From assembly GCA_020073565.1 (NCBI GenBank), contig JAIQEY010000029.1, forward strand, positions 1-64,000: a stretch of 64,000 nt of DNA, given 5' to 3'. Numbering within the stretch: position 1 is the stretch's first letter; each line of letters begins with the position of its first letter. The notes beneath the pieces are model-generated. The model saw only the letters and a list, made by a program, of their open reading frames with translations. It did no database searches and had not been told where the DNA came from. The DNA comes from Terriglobia bacterium. GTDB lineage: Bacteria > Acidobacteriota > Terriglobia > Terriglobales > Acidobacteriaceae. Below are positions 44,454-50,777 of this stretch, piece after piece. The position numbers and the translations under genes are program-made.

Positions 44454-44601
44454 GCCTCTCCGGGCTGCGAAACAAACTGGCCGGAACTGACTCTCGCACC
44501 TTCGCATGAAACGCACTAGCCAAATTTCGATACCGAAGCCGCAAGCGACACAGTGTATGCTTCCGGCTGAGGCAACAACCCGAGCAAGCCATGGAGAAGC
44601 C

Positions 44602-45784
44602 ATGGCGCGACGGAGGTTTCAAAGTCCGAAACCATTTAAGGAGGGTCAATACTGGTGGTTGCGCGTTTGGGATACCAACCTGACAGGCAACCGAAAACGT
44701 CAACGCTTGAAACTAGCACCGGCAGACATGCCACTGCGAGAAGTGCAAAAGATCGCCGAACAGAAACTGCACCCCGTCAATCAAGGTTTGGTTCTGACCG
44801 GCTCGGCAATGAACTTCGGTGACTTTGTGACCGAAAAGTACATCAAAACGTACCTGCCACTGCTTTCGAGCAGCACGCAAGATTCCTACTACCGCGTGAT
44901 CTCGAAGTACCTCAAGCCAGAATTTTCGCGGCTGTCTCTCTGCGAACTGACACGGCTCAAGGTGCAAGAGTATTTTTCGAGCATGGCAGTACCTTATCCC
45001 ACAATCTCGAAAATCAGGGACACCATGTCTTCCATCCTCCGCTCTGCGGTCGATGCGGACTGCCTGCTCAAAAATCCGTTAGACGGATTGCGCTTGCCCT
45101 TGGACAAGCGCCCCCGTCAGCCGAAATCGACCATCACGCCTGAGCAGTTCCACGCGCTGCTCACCCTCGTGCCCGAGCCTTACGCTTCGATGCTGTTTGT
45201 CAGTGTGTGGACTGGGTTGCGCGTCTCCGAGTTAATCGGGCTGAAGTGGCGTTGCATCCATTCCGACAGCATCACGGTCGAGGAACGATTCTGCCGTGGT
45301 GATTGGTCAACTCCAAAAACCAGTGCCTCAGCAGCAACGATTGGCGTTGCTCCGCAGGTAATCGCCCGCATCAACCGCTTGAAATCTCTCACGGTGGAAG
45401 TTCGTGCGGGACGTGCGGTGCGAAAAACATAAACTCGTCAAAGCATCGGGACCGGATGATCTGGTTTTTCAGAGCGTTCAGAAAGGCAAGCCGATGAATG
45501 ACCAAAACGTTTTGCGAAGGCACATCAAACCAGCAGCCACAGCGTTGGGGCTGCATGTTAATTGGCGATGCCTCCGCACTTCACACGCGACATGGTTGGT
45601 TCAGGCGGGAGCCGATCCCAAATCGGTGCAAGGTCAGCGCCACTCGCGCATTTCGACCACGATGGAGATTTACGCTCAAATCGTGCCGCTGGCGCAACGC
45701 CGAGCACTAGAACAGCTCTCGGAGTTTGCTAAAGCGAGCGCAACAGACGCACGGTCCGATTCACGGTCCATTACGGTCCAATAA
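44602..45784 (+). pseudogene. tyrosine recombinase/integrase, frameshifted
   Basis: The N-terminal part from about 44602 (MARRRFQSPKPFKEGQYWWL) has the SAM-like core-binding domain and the first catalytic Arg (TGLRVSELIGLKWR). The frame ends at a TAA at 45430-45432, but family sequence continues one frame over (HKLVKASGPDDLVFQ, WRCLRTSHATWLVQAGADP, QRHSRISTTMEIYAQ with the Tyr nucleophile) to 45784. One indel near 45.40-45.43 kb explains it. The gene ends 38 bases from a tRNA-Ala 3' end, typical of a tRNA-targeting island integrase. Confidence 0.8.
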
Positions 45785-46620: not shown

Positions 46621-47367
46621 CTACTGGGGTTGCAGTAACCGGGTCAAGGTGTACTTCAACTCTTCCGGTTTGAACCCGAAGGGGCCCGGCCTACTCTTGT
46701 ACGCCACACGCCCGTTCGCATCGATCAAGTAGATGCGATCTGGCCAGGCTGTGTATGCCTGCTCGGTTGAGTTGCCAAACACATCCAACACCGCTGGAAT
46801 TTCAATTCCCAGCTTTCGCACACATGCGCCGGCAACGAGGGCACGTTCCTCTTCGCTCTTGGGGCTGGAGAAAATAACTTTGTCTTTAATGTTGCTCTGC
46901 ATCTGCCAGACGTCACTGGGATGCGCTTCGGTGATGTAGACAACCAGGAACGCGACCTGGCTTTTGTACTGCTCGTACAGCTTGTTGAGGGCAGGAACCT
47001 CCCGCCGGAACGGAGGTCAGGTGTAGCTTCCAAATACCAGCACCACCGGTTGCCGGTGTGCCGTAAGCGCCGACAACTGTATCTGCGCGCTCTTGTCCAG
47101 TTTGGTCAGCGCGAAGTCGGGCGCCGGACTGCCCACCTGCAGCGAACCGGCACGGGCGCGCGTCCACAACGTTTCAAACGGAAAGACAAGAAATGCGACC
47201 GGCCCCGGTATCCTCGCCATGACTCGAGCAAATTCTTCTGGCGGCTGCCGCATAACGGCGTAGATCGACATGCAGCCGATCACCCACAGCAGGGCAATCA
47301 CTCCCAACCCGCGAACCAACGCTCTTCTTACGGCCTTGCGTTTCGTGTTCGAAACATCGTTTTGCAT
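46621..47367 (-). CDS. iodothyronine-deiodinase-like selenoprotein (in-frame UGA)
   Basis: Read through one in-frame TGA (47019-47017), this is a 248-residue protein. The ATG at 47367 has GGAGG upstream. A membrane anchor (about 17-40; LGVIALLWVIGCMSIYAVM) precedes a thioredoxin-like domain (GSLQVGSPAPDFAL). The active site reads VVLVFGSYT-U-PPFRREVPAL with U at residue 117, matching the vertebrate FGSCT-U-P motif. After the UGA the family sequence continues unbroken: FLVVYITEAHPSDVW, then YTAWPDRIYLIDANGRVAYK and GPFGFKPEE. A plain redox role is as likely as dehalogenation. The alternative is a Cys (TGC/TGT) to TGA nonsense mutation. The gene lies 23 bases after a TonB-dependent receptor on the same strand. 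Confidence 0.85.
46995..47019 (-). promoter_or_regulatory. candidate bacterial SECIS hairpin at the UGA
   Basis: Starting at the UGA, ACCTCC pairs with GGAGGT (47017-47012 with 47002-46997); an extra G-C pair is possible with one bulged G, leaving a loop around TTCCGG. A hairpin immediately 3' of the UGA is where bacterial SelB-binding elements lie. The loop lacks the E. coli GGUCU consensus, but bacterial SECIS loops vary. Confidence 0.45.
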
Positions 47368-47390
47368 AAGCTTCCTCCGAAACCGCAGCC

Positions 47391-50300
47391 CTAAAACAAA
47401 AATTTCAACGCGAACTGGATCAGCCGTGGGTTTTGGGCCGAAAGAATTTGATTGAAGGTTGGCGAACCTTTGTCGCTGTCGGGCAGACGGAAATTAGTAT
47501 GGTTGAGGATATTGAAGAACTCAGCCCGGAACTGAAACTCTCTGGACTCCGTGATGCGAATGTTCTTGAACGCAGAAAAGTCCCAATTTGCGTATCCCGG
47601 TCCTTCTGCGATGTTGCGGCCTGCGGTGCCAAACTGCTGCACCGGGGAGTTGGGATCCTGCGTGATTCGTTGAAACGCATCTCCGTTGAGCCATGCACTC
47701 GGGCTGTGGGGTCCTGCGTTGGGATTCTGTCCGGGAACCAGATTCGGCCGGTTGGAGAAAAATCCGCTGATTTCCGGCGCCGAGCCCTGCACGGAAAAGT
47801 CAGTCGAATCGAAGACGGTGAACGGAGTACCCGTCATCAGGGTCGCAATTCCGTTGAGTTGCCAGTGGCCGAGGGCCTGCTGATACCAGTTGCGCGGGTG
47901 ATTCCAGAAGGGAAGACTCCACTGGTAGCTCAGCACAAACCGCTGACGGGCATCGAACAAGGAGCGGCCCCGTTCCGCAGCGACGTCGAAAGGATTCTGT
48001 GCCAGATCATTCTCGCCGGCCACAGGTTTGGCCGCTGAGCCGGTCATGTTGAATGAAGAAGCGTCATCAATCGACTTGGAGTAGGTGTAGGAGGCAAGAA
48101 ACGAAATGCCGTGGCTCAACCGCTTCTTAAGGCTGGCCTCCAGCGCGTTGTAGGAGGAATTGGCAATGCCCGCGATCAGACCAGTTGAAGAGTAAACGCA
48201 AGGAGGAGAGCTAGCATCCAATGTGCATCCCGAATGTAGCCGCCGCTGGTCCGCGTTGCTCGAGGTGGAGATCGGATGACCGCTGCTGTCAACACCCGGA
48301 ATGTACACAGCCGGGTTGCCTTCGATGAAGCGCGGCAGCTTGGTTCCTTTTGTTCCCACGTAGCCGATTTCGAATAGTAGATCGGAGCCAAAGGACCTTT
48401 GAACGTTCAGGTCCCAGTCCTGCGAGTAGGGCAGCGGCAGGTTGGGAGCAAGCGTCAGGTTGGTCAGCGGCTTCGCAAACGTCCCGTCGGGAGGTGGGTT
48501 TCCATTGTAGGGATCGGAAAAATTGAGACCCGTTGGACCAAGACTGATCTGCTGGGTCTGCAGATAGGGCGGAGCGCTGATGGGCGACTGGAGCGGCCCG
48601 CCCTGCCCCGTGTAGTACGGCTCGAAAAAGATTCCATACGCAGAAGTCACCAGCCACTTCGTACTTCCAGTCGGATCCCATGCCACGCCCACGCGCGGAG
48701 CAAAACCTTTCTTGAAGGTTGGGATCAAGCCCGCGGGCACGCCCGGATCACCGGGGTAAAGCAGTCCGTTGGGTGCATCGGGCATGACTGTGGACTGGCG
48801 GCCCGGAATCCACAACGTTTGCCGATTCTTGATTTCCGTATAAGGGAAGGGAAGTTCATAACGCAGACCGGCGTTCAGAGTCAGGCGCCGCGTGACTTTG
48901 TATGTGTCCTGAGCGTAACCATTCAGGGAGTTCCCTCGTATACCGCGAGAGAAGTCGCCGCGGCCCTGGAGAAAGAAGACCGGCTGGCCAAACAGGAAGC
49001 TTGCGAACGCATCGCCTACGACCGGGAAGCCCGCGAACACAAAAAAGCCGTTAGTAGCGATGCCCTGCAATACATTGAACTGCAGGTGCTGGTACCCGCC
49101 TCCGAATCTAAGGTCGTGCTGCCCGTGCACCCAACTCAAAGAGCCGGAATAGTCAAAAGAGTTTTCATAAGTGTTGCGCGGTCCGGTAATCGGATCCCCA
49201 ATGGTTGTGTACCCGTTCACCTGGATAAAGGGAGGACCGGTGGCCACGTCCAAGCTTGGCTGGTAGTCAAAGCCGAGGCTGGCGGGCGTGGTGTGGTTAG
49301 TACGTTCACCGTACAGAAATTTATTCCGCAGGTATGAGAAACGGAGGACACCAATCACGGCGGGAGAAAAGCTGTGGGTCTCCTGCGCGACGAAATTCTG
49401 CGCCCGTTGTTCCTGCCCCACCGGAAAGCCCGGCACGCTGGCACCGGATGTGGGGATGGGGTTGAATTGTGTGCCGTCGCTGAATGAGTAGCGAAAGTTA
49501 AAAGTGTCGGAGACTGAAAGATAGTGGTCCAGCCGCAAGCCGAACTGATTCGAGTCCTGGCGCACGACTTGAGTCGAGGTAAAGACGTTCGTTCCGCCCT
49601 TGGGTTCCGGAAACGAGTCCAGAAGGCCCAGAGAAAGTGAACTTGCGTCAGTGGCGATTGGGAACTGGTTGTAGAGGTATGGATGGTTAAGGAAGACATT
49701 GAAAAGCTGATGAACGGGCTGTCCCGTGACTGGATCCCGATCCTTGCAGATGCCGGTGGTCGGACCACTGGTGTCAAAACCGCCCAGGCATATTTCTGAA
49801 AAATCGCCATTTCGCTCATTCAGCGAAGGCACGGTTGAAGAGCGCGTTTCTCCCTGACGGTTGCGGAAGCCTTCGTAATATCCGAAGAAGAAGGTCTTGT
49901 TTCTGCGGATGGGCCCACCCAAACTCGCGCCGAACTGGTTCTGTTTCAGCGGTTCGACGGTTTGCGCCAAGTAGCCTTTGGAGTCAAGAGCGTCATTGCG
50001 CAGGAATTCCCAGAGCGCGCCATGAATTGCGTTGGAGCCAGAGCGCGTGATGATGTTGGTGGTCGAGCCCAGGCTGTTTCCGAATTCCGCATTGGAGTTG
50101 TGCGTAAGAATTCTGAACTCGGTGATGGCGTCCACGGGCGGCTTGAGAACGAAGCCGCCGTCCACGCCATTAAAGTTGTTGGCTCCGTCGATTAGGAAGT
50201 TATTAGACTCGGGCCGCTGGCCGTTCACTGCGTACGCTTGTCCTTCGCGCAATGACCCCCCCGCTTCCAGCAGGCCGGGAGTCACCGGCACCACTCCCGG

Positions 50301-50777
50301 TTGCAGCCATCCAAGCTGAGTGAAGTTACGGCCATCCAGGGGCAGGTCGAGCAGTTCGCGCTCCTCGACCGTCTTCCCGAGGCTGGTCACCGTCCCCTGA
50401 ATCAGTTGTGCGTCGGCCTGCACCTGGATCTGTTGCGTCTCTACTCCCACCACCAGATGGATCGGCACCGATGCCGTCTCATTCACATCCAACGAGATCC
50501 CTTCTTGCACATACTTCTGGAAATTCTTGGCGGCAACTTCCAGCCGGTAGTGCCCGACAGGTAGCTCGAGCAACAGGTAGTTTCCACTGCGATCGGTAGT
50601 CGTTGTACGTGTCAGCCCAGTCTCAATCTGCTTGGCGCTAACCGTGGCAGACTGCACCAGTGCACCCGTGGGGTCCGAAACGATCCCACGGATATTGCCC
50701 GTGATTTGCTGCGCAAAGAGGTTCAATCCTGCAAAGATCGTTACTAAGACACAGGCCAGCTTTCCAAAACTAGTCAT
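47391..50777 (-). CDS. TonB-dependent receptor with carboxypeptidase-regulatory-like domain
   Basis: 1128 residues. Signal peptide (KLACVLVTIFAGLNLFAQ); an Ig-like carboxypeptidase-regulatory domain (about 25-105; ITGNIRGIVSDPTGALVQSA, GNYLLLELPVGHYRLEV); a plug domain (about 135-240; VNGQRPESNNFLIDGANNFN, EFGNSLGSTTNIITRSGSN); then a large beta-barrel with C-terminal Phe (PRLIQFALKFLF). This is the Oar-like/SusC-like receptor type expanded in Acidobacteria. The ligand is unknown. Its coupling to the redox selenoprotein downstream suggests import linked to periplasmic redox or halogen chemistry, which is an inference. Confidence 0.96.
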   Translation of the reverse strand: MTSFGKLACVLVTIFAGLNLFAQQITGNIRGIVSDPTGALVQSATVSAKQIETGLTRTTTTDRSGNYLLLELPVGHYRLEVAAKNFQKYVQEGISLDVNETASVPIHLVVGVETQQIQVQADAQLIQGTVTSLGKTVEERELLDLPLDGRNFTQLGWLQPGVVPVTPGLLEAGGSLREGQAYAVNGQRPESNNFLIDGANNFNGVDGGFVLKPPVDAITEFRILTHNSNAEFGNSLGSTTNIITRSGSNAIHGALWEFLRNDALDSKGYLAQTVEPLKQNQFGASLGGPIRRNKTFFFGYYEGFRNRQGETRSSTVPSLNERNGDFSEICLGGFDTSGPTTGICKDRDPVTGQPVHQLFNVFLNHPYLYNQFPIATDASSLSLGLLDSFPEPKGGTNVFTSTQVVRQDSNQFGLRLDHYLSVSDTFNFRYSFSDGTQFNPIPTSGASVPGFPVGQEQRAQNFVAQETHSFSPAVIGVLRFSYLRNKFLYGERTNHTTPASLGFDYQPSLDVATGPPFIQVNGYTTIGDPITGPRNTYENSFDYSGSLSWVHGQHDLRFGGGYQHLQFNVLQGIATNGFFVFAGFPVVGDAFASFLFGQPVFFLQGRGDFSRGIRGNSLNGYAQDTYKVTRRLTLNAGLRYELPFPYTEIKNRQTLWIPGRQSTVMPDAPNGLLYPGDPGVPAGLIPTFKKGFAPRVGVAWDPTGSTKWLVTSAYGIFFEPYYTGQGGPLQSPISAPPYLQTQQISLGPTGLNFSDPYNGNPPPDGTFAKPLTNLTLAPNLPLPYSQDWDLNVQRSFGSDLLFEIGYVGTKGTKLPRFIEGNPAVYIPGVDSSGHPISTSSNADQRRLHSGCTLDASSPPCVYSSTGLIAGIANSSYNALEASLKKRLSHGISFLASYTYSKSIDDASSFNMTGSAAKPVAGENDLAQNPFDVAAERGRSLFDARQRFVLSYQWSLPFWNHPRNWYQQALGHWQLNGIATLMTGTPFTVFDSTDFSVQGSAPEISGFFSNRPNLVPGQNPNAGPHSPSAWLNGDAFQRITQDPNSPVQQFGTAGRNIAEGPGYANWDFSAFKNIRITESREFQFRAEFFNILNHTNFRLPDSDKGSPTFNQILSAQNPRLIQFALKFLF

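Follow-up and report, generated by a model that had tools for sequence, protein, structure and literature searches.

The deiodinase-like gene and its surroundings

The window, i.e. the whole stretch of 64,000 nucleotides of a soil bacterium analyzed here, carries on its minus strand a deiodinase-like gene with an in-frame UGA (Table 1). The frame (47367-46621) comprises 116 codons, the UGA predicted to encode selenocysteine (U117), 131 further residues and the terminal TAG. A preliminary description of the locus had noted two minus-strand segments that share one frame and are split only by the TGA at 47019-47017. The sequence bears this out and the motifs quoted in that description are all found in the translated gene. 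Residues 75-243 of the read-through protein, thus spanning both sides of the UGA, match the Pfam family T4_deiodinase (PF00837) with 116.8 bits (cut-off 27), and the protein is the sole match to this family at E <= 0.001 in the source genome. Among proteins of solved structure, mouse Dio3 (E 3.6e-23) and Dio2 (E 1.6e-21) come closest in sequence, and alignment with both places the UGA exactly on their selenocysteine, as had been proposed from the motif around it. Gene annotation pipelines would be apt to split or shorten UGA genes of this kind.

Table 1. Positions of the selenoprotein gene, its predicted functional elements and the adjacent upstream gene in the window
Feature	Position	Strand	Remarks
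Predicted deiodinase-like selenoprotein gene	46621..47367	minus	ATG at 47367, in-frame UGA, TAG stop at 46623-46621; 248 residues
In-frame UGA, predicted selenocysteine U117, in FGSYT-U-PPF	47017..47019	minus	TGA in relatives; aligns with Sec of mouse Dio2/Dio3
Shine-Dalgarno-like GGAGGA	47373..47378	minus	5 nt upstream of ATG; read from the sequence
SECIS-like hairpin	46990..47006	minus	7-bp stem, 47006-47000 with 46996-46990; apical loop GGU at 46999-46997
Deiodinase signature Y144-xx-E147-A-H149-PSD-V-W154	46906..46938	minus	Dio relay and loop-D residues; roles as proposed in PMC11592359
Cys182, candidate resolving cysteine	46822..46824	minus	no further cysteine in the catalytic domain; found in all 19 A2 rows; putative role
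Predicted N-terminal membrane anchor	47251..47310	minus	about residues 20-39, after Lys/Arg-rich start; from sequence; helix 2-39 in the model; topology by positive-inside rule
Outer-membrane receptor, CarboxypepD_reg + OMP_b-brl_4 type	47391-50777	minus	ends 23 nt upstream of the selenoprotein start

The N-terminal segment, with basic residues at its start and a hydrophobic helix reaching to about residue 39, suggests an anchor in the inner membrane, with the catalytic domain probably residing outside the cytoplasm when the positive-inside rule is applied. Animal deiodinases also possess an N-terminal anchor. The receptor gene preceding the selenoprotein gene is located directly upstream in one relative (L014), too, and 1.3 kb upstream in another (L021). 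When a conserved neighbourhood was sought at 21 loci, many of which have short flanks, no neighbouring family occurred at more than four of them, and gene neighbourhood therefore gives no hint on function. Elsewhere in the window, two overlapping plus-strand ORFs in different frames (44506-45432 and 45404-45784) resemble a single tyrosine-recombinase (integrase) gene that a frameshift has broken up; the former matches Phage_int_SAM_3 and Phage_integrase only weakly, with scores below cut-off.

A SECIS-like hairpin downstream of the UGA

A small-loop SECIS-like hairpin with a G in its apical loop is predicted just past the UGA. It begins 10 nt after this codon (ggcggga[GGU]uccugcc) and its loop starts from the 18th nt. 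When windows of six scorable codons were slid along 19 genes, giving 163 windows, codons U+4 to U+9 exhibited the top excess of identical synonymous codons (0.517 versus a median of 0.057), and for Arg U+5, Glu U+6 and Val U+7 a single codon is used in every same-residue pair of these genes.

Folding of single sequences was not clearly better than that of dinucleotide shuffles for the six sequences analyzed (z 0.11, -0.66, -1.90, -0.73, 0.14 and 0.58). Because this approach proved uninformative, synonymous shuffles were adopted, in which codons +1 to +17 were redrawn synonymously, a GG was required in the loop and P<0.05 served as threshold. The hairpin beats its shuffles in 33 of 43 TGA genes, with P 0.006 for the window gene, versus none of seven genes with a Cys or Ser codon. 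A first scorer with a strict 3-nt GGT/GGC loop had returned 32 of 43 TGA genes and none of the seven others at P<0.05 and was loosened after it had missed loops of 4 nt. Two of the 43 TGA genes (L063, L064) are without a convincing hairpin, and one pair is broken in L025. A search of the hairpin region against Rfam yielded three chance matches, none of them at the family threshold.

Stems differ between clades around a similar loop, as exemplified by ggcggga[GGT]tcccgcc, ggcgggc[GGT]gcccgcc, gcgtca[GGT]tggcgc and cggtc[GGTC]gaccg and further by ccgctc[GGTC]gagcgg, gaagatc[GGT]gatcttc and cgcgggc[AGGT]gcccgcg. In an alignment of 33 of the 43 TGA rows (16 of them distinct), 90.2% of the stem cells are paired and five of the seven stem pairs have changes on both sides, a number that is matched by 11 of 500 shuffles; this alignment leans towards structure because ten rows were left out, namely those with 4-nt loops (L055, L056, L057, L060, L069, L070, L073, L074) and the hairpin-less L063 and L064, and three more (L058, L059, L062) were shifted 4 nt further on. 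The covariation score of 0.517 versus 0.160 in shuffles was matched by none of 500 and slid registers do not exceed 0.174, with the caveat that related rows may outscore shuffles even without structure. Within the close clade alone, zero stem pairs have changes on both sides.

Selenocysteine machinery of the source genome

The source genome assembly amounts to 6.10 Mb in 123 contigs (99.97% complete, 6.02% contamination). The preliminary description had recommended a search of the remaining genome for selA, selB, selD and tRNA-Sec, and all four were found. The tRNA-Sec resides at C47:96247-96339 (71 bits; called as tRNA-SeC with anticodon tca (UCA) by ARAGORN), selB on contig C78 (368.8 bits, cut-off 242.25), selA on C37 (545.9 bits, cut-off 267.9) and selD on C2 (361.2 bits, cut-off 125). 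Contamination as the origin of the sel genes is unsupported, as they are spread over four contigs with a composition that is ordinary for the assembly (tetranucleotide correlation 0.945 for tRNA-Sec, 0.983 for selB, 0.971 for selA and 0.980 for selD; 0.932-0.982 for twelve other stretches).

The selD gene (G000:C2:17091-18107; L042) itself contains an in-frame TGA in KAAG-U-ASK. Its hairpin, gtccggc[GGT]gctggac (P 0.00025), follows the same 7-bp/GGU design as that of the window gene. Furthermore, a gene for the alpha subunit of formate dehydrogenase (G000:C6:98191-101355; L092, L093; 1332.4 bits, cut-off 814.2) features one in-frame TGA in ARV-U-HGP. The hairpin there fails the small-loop scorer (P 0.12) and may have a larger loop. 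In all, the source genome contains at least three predicted selenoprotein genes.

Conservation and reading of the UGA codon

Relatives were collected by a short-peptide-pattern scan of GTDB r220 contigs, which reaches close relatives only and resulted in 22 loci, all of them from Acidobacteria-type MAGs. The catalytic codon is TGA in 21 of the 22 (20 by motif search plus L024, where Ns soon follow); the one relative without the UGA stretch, L030, has lost this region. The alternation with cysteine codons that had been envisaged in the preliminary description does occur, as seven distant homologues carry TGC or TGT, in one case TCC, at the catalytic codon. For codon comparisons, 19 of 23 sequences (the window gene and its 22 relatives) were used, L024, L027, L029 and L030 being excluded for gaps, Ns or frame breaks. 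Median pN/pS was 0.215 downstream of the UGA versus 0.312 in the 44 columns upstream (171 pairs), pointing at stronger constraint downstream. TGA also serves as the final stop in seven of 18 full-length A2 relatives (L010, L011, L012, L019, L023, L026, L028). The code is therefore not reassigned, and a reassigned UGA is ruled out as an explanation.

There is only a very slim chance that the UGA acts as a true stop and that the product is the 116-residue N-terminal piece, consisting of the anchor and the first strands, with or without a downstream re-start. An ORF of 93 codons beginning with ATG is indeed present downstream (46902-46621), and insertion of selenocysteine in bacteria is incomplete as a rule (30-40%; PMC4513850), so that some truncated product is to be expected. 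However, the downstream ATG corresponds to residue 156 and is situated past the entire Y-xx-E-A-H-PSD-x-W signature, the residues between UGA and ATG rank among the most conserved, and a true stop would leave the hairpin without use. A cysteine enzyme disrupted by a nonsense mutation or a sequencing error, which an in-frame TGA may look like at first sight and which would be in keeping with the draft-assembly relatives L024, L027, L029 and L030 and their gaps, Ns or broken frames, has practically no probability, since it is refuted by the TGA at the same codon in 21 of the 22 relatives, which stem from separate records, in combination with the strong protein constraint downstream, and the co-varying hairpin and the complete Sec machinery likewise argue against it. 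Judged from sequence, we consider it nearly certain that the window gene is a real selenoprotein gene encoding a full-length Sec product.

Fold and active site

An AlphaFold2 model based on the family profile A2 has a mean pLDDT of 82.5 and a pTM of 0.78, with loop-D residues 160-163 falling below 50. In a Foldseek search, mouse Dio2 (9h48) and Dio3 (4tr3) rank first and second by E-value and are followed by ResA-type chains. TM-scores normalized over the query are highest for the deiodinases (Dio2 0.56, Dio3 0.52, versus about 0.49 for ResA chains), whereas those over the target are higher for ResA chains (0.82-0.86) than for Dio2 (0.74) and Dio3 (0.67).

For Dio2, a proton relay consisting of Ser127, Thr129, Tyr157, Glu160, His162 and His182 has been proposed, while in Dio3 a role in gating the site has been suggested for Phe258 and a thyronine-clamping role for Arg275 (PMC11592359). 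With the Dio residue numbers assigned in the alignment from residue identity and spacing, five of the relay residues are retained as S114, T116, Y144, E147 and H149, and the loop-D Trp167 corresponds to W154. The sixth, Dio2 His182, is replaced by Pro169. Likewise, the gating phenylalanine (258 in Dio3, 224 in Dio2) is exchanged for Pro209 and the clamping Arg/Lys (275 in Dio3, 241 in Dio2) for Pro227. All 50 rows in the comparison have Tyr, Glu and His at positions 144, 147 and 149, including the Cys and Ser forms. The part of the deiodinase site predicted to serve selenium chemistry is thus retained in the window protein and the putative thyroid-hormone part is lost.

A candidate partner cysteine

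Further cysteines were compared over the aligned catalytic stretch, the A2 rows beginning just before APDF and the anchors lying outside the comparison. Exactly one is present in 39 of the 41 bacterial Sec rows, two are found in L057 and none in L073, and L065 is a fragment. The cysteine occupies position 182 in the clade of the window gene (19 of 19 A2 rows) and in L049-L054 and L064, position 165 in L055-L057 and L060, position 183 in L066-L067, position 204 in L063, position 97 in L069, L070 and L074, position 140 in the fragment L065 and position 115, the 'proximal' place of deiodinases, in L058, L059 and L062. Only three of the seven non-Sec rows have a further cysteine, in L061 at position 182, versus 40 of the 41 Sec rows (Fisher P 0.0009, kinship uncorrected). 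From this distribution we infer that the resolving cysteine has been positioned anew in different lineages.

The proximal and distal cysteines of deiodinases are absent from the window protein, which has Tyr115 and Ile190 instead; Dio2 likewise does without the proximal one. A UxxC motif is not present either, as the window protein reads U-P-P-F and none of the 41 bacterial Sec rows has a cysteine at U+3. It appears somewhat probable that Cys182 is the redox partner of Sec117.

Proposed function

With high probability, the best overall explanation is a full-length Sec protein that works by the following mechanism. In line with what is known of selenium biology in bacteria, SelB would bind to the hairpin and deliver Sec-tRNA at the UGA. 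The N-terminal helix would hold the protein in the inner membrane with its thioredoxin/deiodinase-fold domain in the periplasm, where the selenolate of Sec117, aided by the conserved network of S114, T116, Y144, E147 and H149, could attack an oxidised or halogenated substrate. Cys182 would then resolve the selenenyl intermediate and a periplasmic thiol system would re-reduce the selenenylsulfide. In more general terms, the protein is very likely an outward-facing selenol oxidoreductase, and thiol/peroxide-type redox chemistry is its most likely role, with reductive dehalogenation as the main alternative.

There is a reasonable probability that the enzyme is a thiol/lipid peroxidase or a disulfide reductase of the peroxiredoxin or ResA kind, which uses Sec for speed and is not a dehalogenase. 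The read-through protein scores 44 bits with AhpC-TSA and 42.8 bits with Redoxin, in both cases above cut-off, ResA-type chains come next after Dio2 and Dio3 in the fold search and surpass them in target-normalized TM-score, and there is one conserved partner cysteine. The anchor of the window protein, which presumably faces outward, would resemble that of ResA and CcmG, both of them outward-facing anchored proteins. Speaking against such an enzyme, neither CxxC nor UxxC is present, and the deiodinase loop-D signature, which plain peroxiredoxins are not known to possess, is retained.

A bacterial reductive dehalogenase, the selenolate of which would strip iodine, bromine or chlorine from soil aromatics just as animal deiodinases do with the iodine of thyronine, is unlikely, even though Dio2 and Dio3 are the top fold matches by E-value and the Ser, Thr, Tyr, Glu and His of the proposed deiodinase relay are retained along with the loop-D Trp (roles from PMC11592359). 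The places of Dio2 His182, Dio3 Phe258 and Dio3 Arg275 are taken by prolines (Pro169, Pro209 and Pro227), and the unconserved gene neighbourhood gives no hint in this direction.

Relation to known proteins

As early as 2005, the Sargasso Sea data yielded bacterial deiodinase-like selenoproteins that have a bacterial SECIS (four Sec sequences; PMC1088965), and the window gene therefore belongs to a known kind. They were found again in the GOS data in 2008, where the respective table row reads 22, 12, 21 and gives no motif (PMC2398784). The window gene shares with these proteins the affiliation to Pfam00837, the bacterial SECIS and the side-by-side occurrence of Sec and Cys forms, and for them, too, a redox rather than a thyroid role has been proposed (PMC1088965, PMC2398784). 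Unlike these sequences from marine metagenomes, it is a complete, anchored gene in an Acidobacteriota genome equipped with the machinery. Two reviews ascribe a UxxC motif to the family (PMC13188914, PMC9312934), which differs from U-P-P-F in the window protein, and the newer of them regards the functions of such families as largely unsettled. As to acidobacteria, three selenoprotein genes are listed for Occallatibacter riparius (PMC12013277), and a survey from 2006 gives three selenoprotein families for Acidobacteria, the word 'deiodinase' being absent from its main text (PMC1794560). Among the open-access papers searched, we found no report on topic by title that links deiodinase to acidobacteria, and none on this family among the titles listed for selenoproteins of acidobacteria. 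What is added here is an entire gene along with the machinery, a co-varying predicted SECIS, a Sec form that is common in Acidobacteriota, an active site with the relay kept and the thyronine residues lost, and a clade-specific candidate partner cysteine.

With mouse Dio2 (9h48) and Dio3 (4tr3), the window protein has in common the fold, the Sec position, U-P-P-F and Y-xx-E-A-H-P-S-D-x-W. In contrast to the mouse enzymes, its hairpin lies within the coding frame, the residues proposed to bind thyronine are missing and Cys182 is present instead of the proximal and distal cysteines. Animal SECIS elements reside in the 3' UTR. The NCBIfam model NF038285 (deiodinase_rel) is matched by 19 of 19 A2 rows; the 192.7 bits of the window protein are below the curated cut-off of 250, and of the 347 model positions only 177-344 match. 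ResA-type thiol-disulfide oxidoreductases share the thioredoxin fold, and the ResA model PRK03147 is hit with 41.9 bits, which is below its cut-off of 170; unlike ResA, the window protein is devoid of CxxC and features the deiodinase signature and Sec. A search of plasmids resulted in three matches, all with less than 60% identity and less than 80% coverage, one of which is annotated as 'deiodinase-like protein' in Mycolicibacterium vanbaalenii.

A tree of 50 rows requires four changes among Sec, Cys and Ser states. Mouse Dio2 and Dio3 group with eight Sec proteins of Acidobacteriota (support 97/84), but the branch in question has a length of 3.07 and the tree is unrooted and samples one bacterial phylum plus mouse, and we take this placement as a lead, not as a result. 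L058, L059 and L062, which carry a cysteine at the proximal place of Dio3, are part of the group beside the mouse enzymes. A far-reaching scenario, in which soil Acidobacteriota harbor a large, mostly Sec-containing deiodinase branch performing reductive dehalogenation at the cell surface, animal thyroid deiodinases descend from such an enzyme and bacterial lineages have re-placed the resolving cysteine around an unchanged Sec site, strikes us as quite improbable.

The proteins described here are complete, anchored relatives, from bacteria, of an enzyme family that is central to medicine, and they include natural Sec forms, Cys forms and shifts of the partner cysteine. These natural forms and shifts render two questions testable in a simple system, namely which job deiodinase-like selenoproteins have in organisms other than animals and how the features of the deiodinase site divide into those for selenium chemistry at large and those for thyroid hormone.

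Distribution in Acidobacteriota

A survey of 396 evenly drawn Acidobacteriota genomes with the family profile A2 (E <= 1e-10) returned matches in 40 genomes. In 23 of these 40, a match contains TGA as the only type of stop, and it is located at the catalytic codon in every case; G327 (42 bits) has TGA plus TAA, and the other 16 have none. The view of Sec-containing members as rare, adopted in the preliminary description, thus needs correction for Acidobacteriota. Seventeen of the 18 top-scoring matches (131 bits or above) contain TGA, and the closer members of the family in this phylum thus usually have the predicted Sec form. selA occurs in 252 of the 396 genomes (E <= 1e-40), among them 20 of the 23 with the UGA form. 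The remaining three (G341, G314, G140) have selB above cut-off, such that selA or selB is present in 23 of 23. Because selA is that common across the phylum, its association with the UGA form is only modest (Fisher P 0.011, kinship uncorrected).

Three genomes from one Acidobacteriota family (G218, G234 and G314; loci L069, L070 and L073) contain two or three family matches each. In G218 and G234, TGA is present in some of the matches and absent from others. The genomes harboring the seven non-Sec homologues (L061, L068, L071, L072, L075, L076, L077) all possess selA. L077 has a serine at the catalytic position and retains the Tyr, Glu and His residues.
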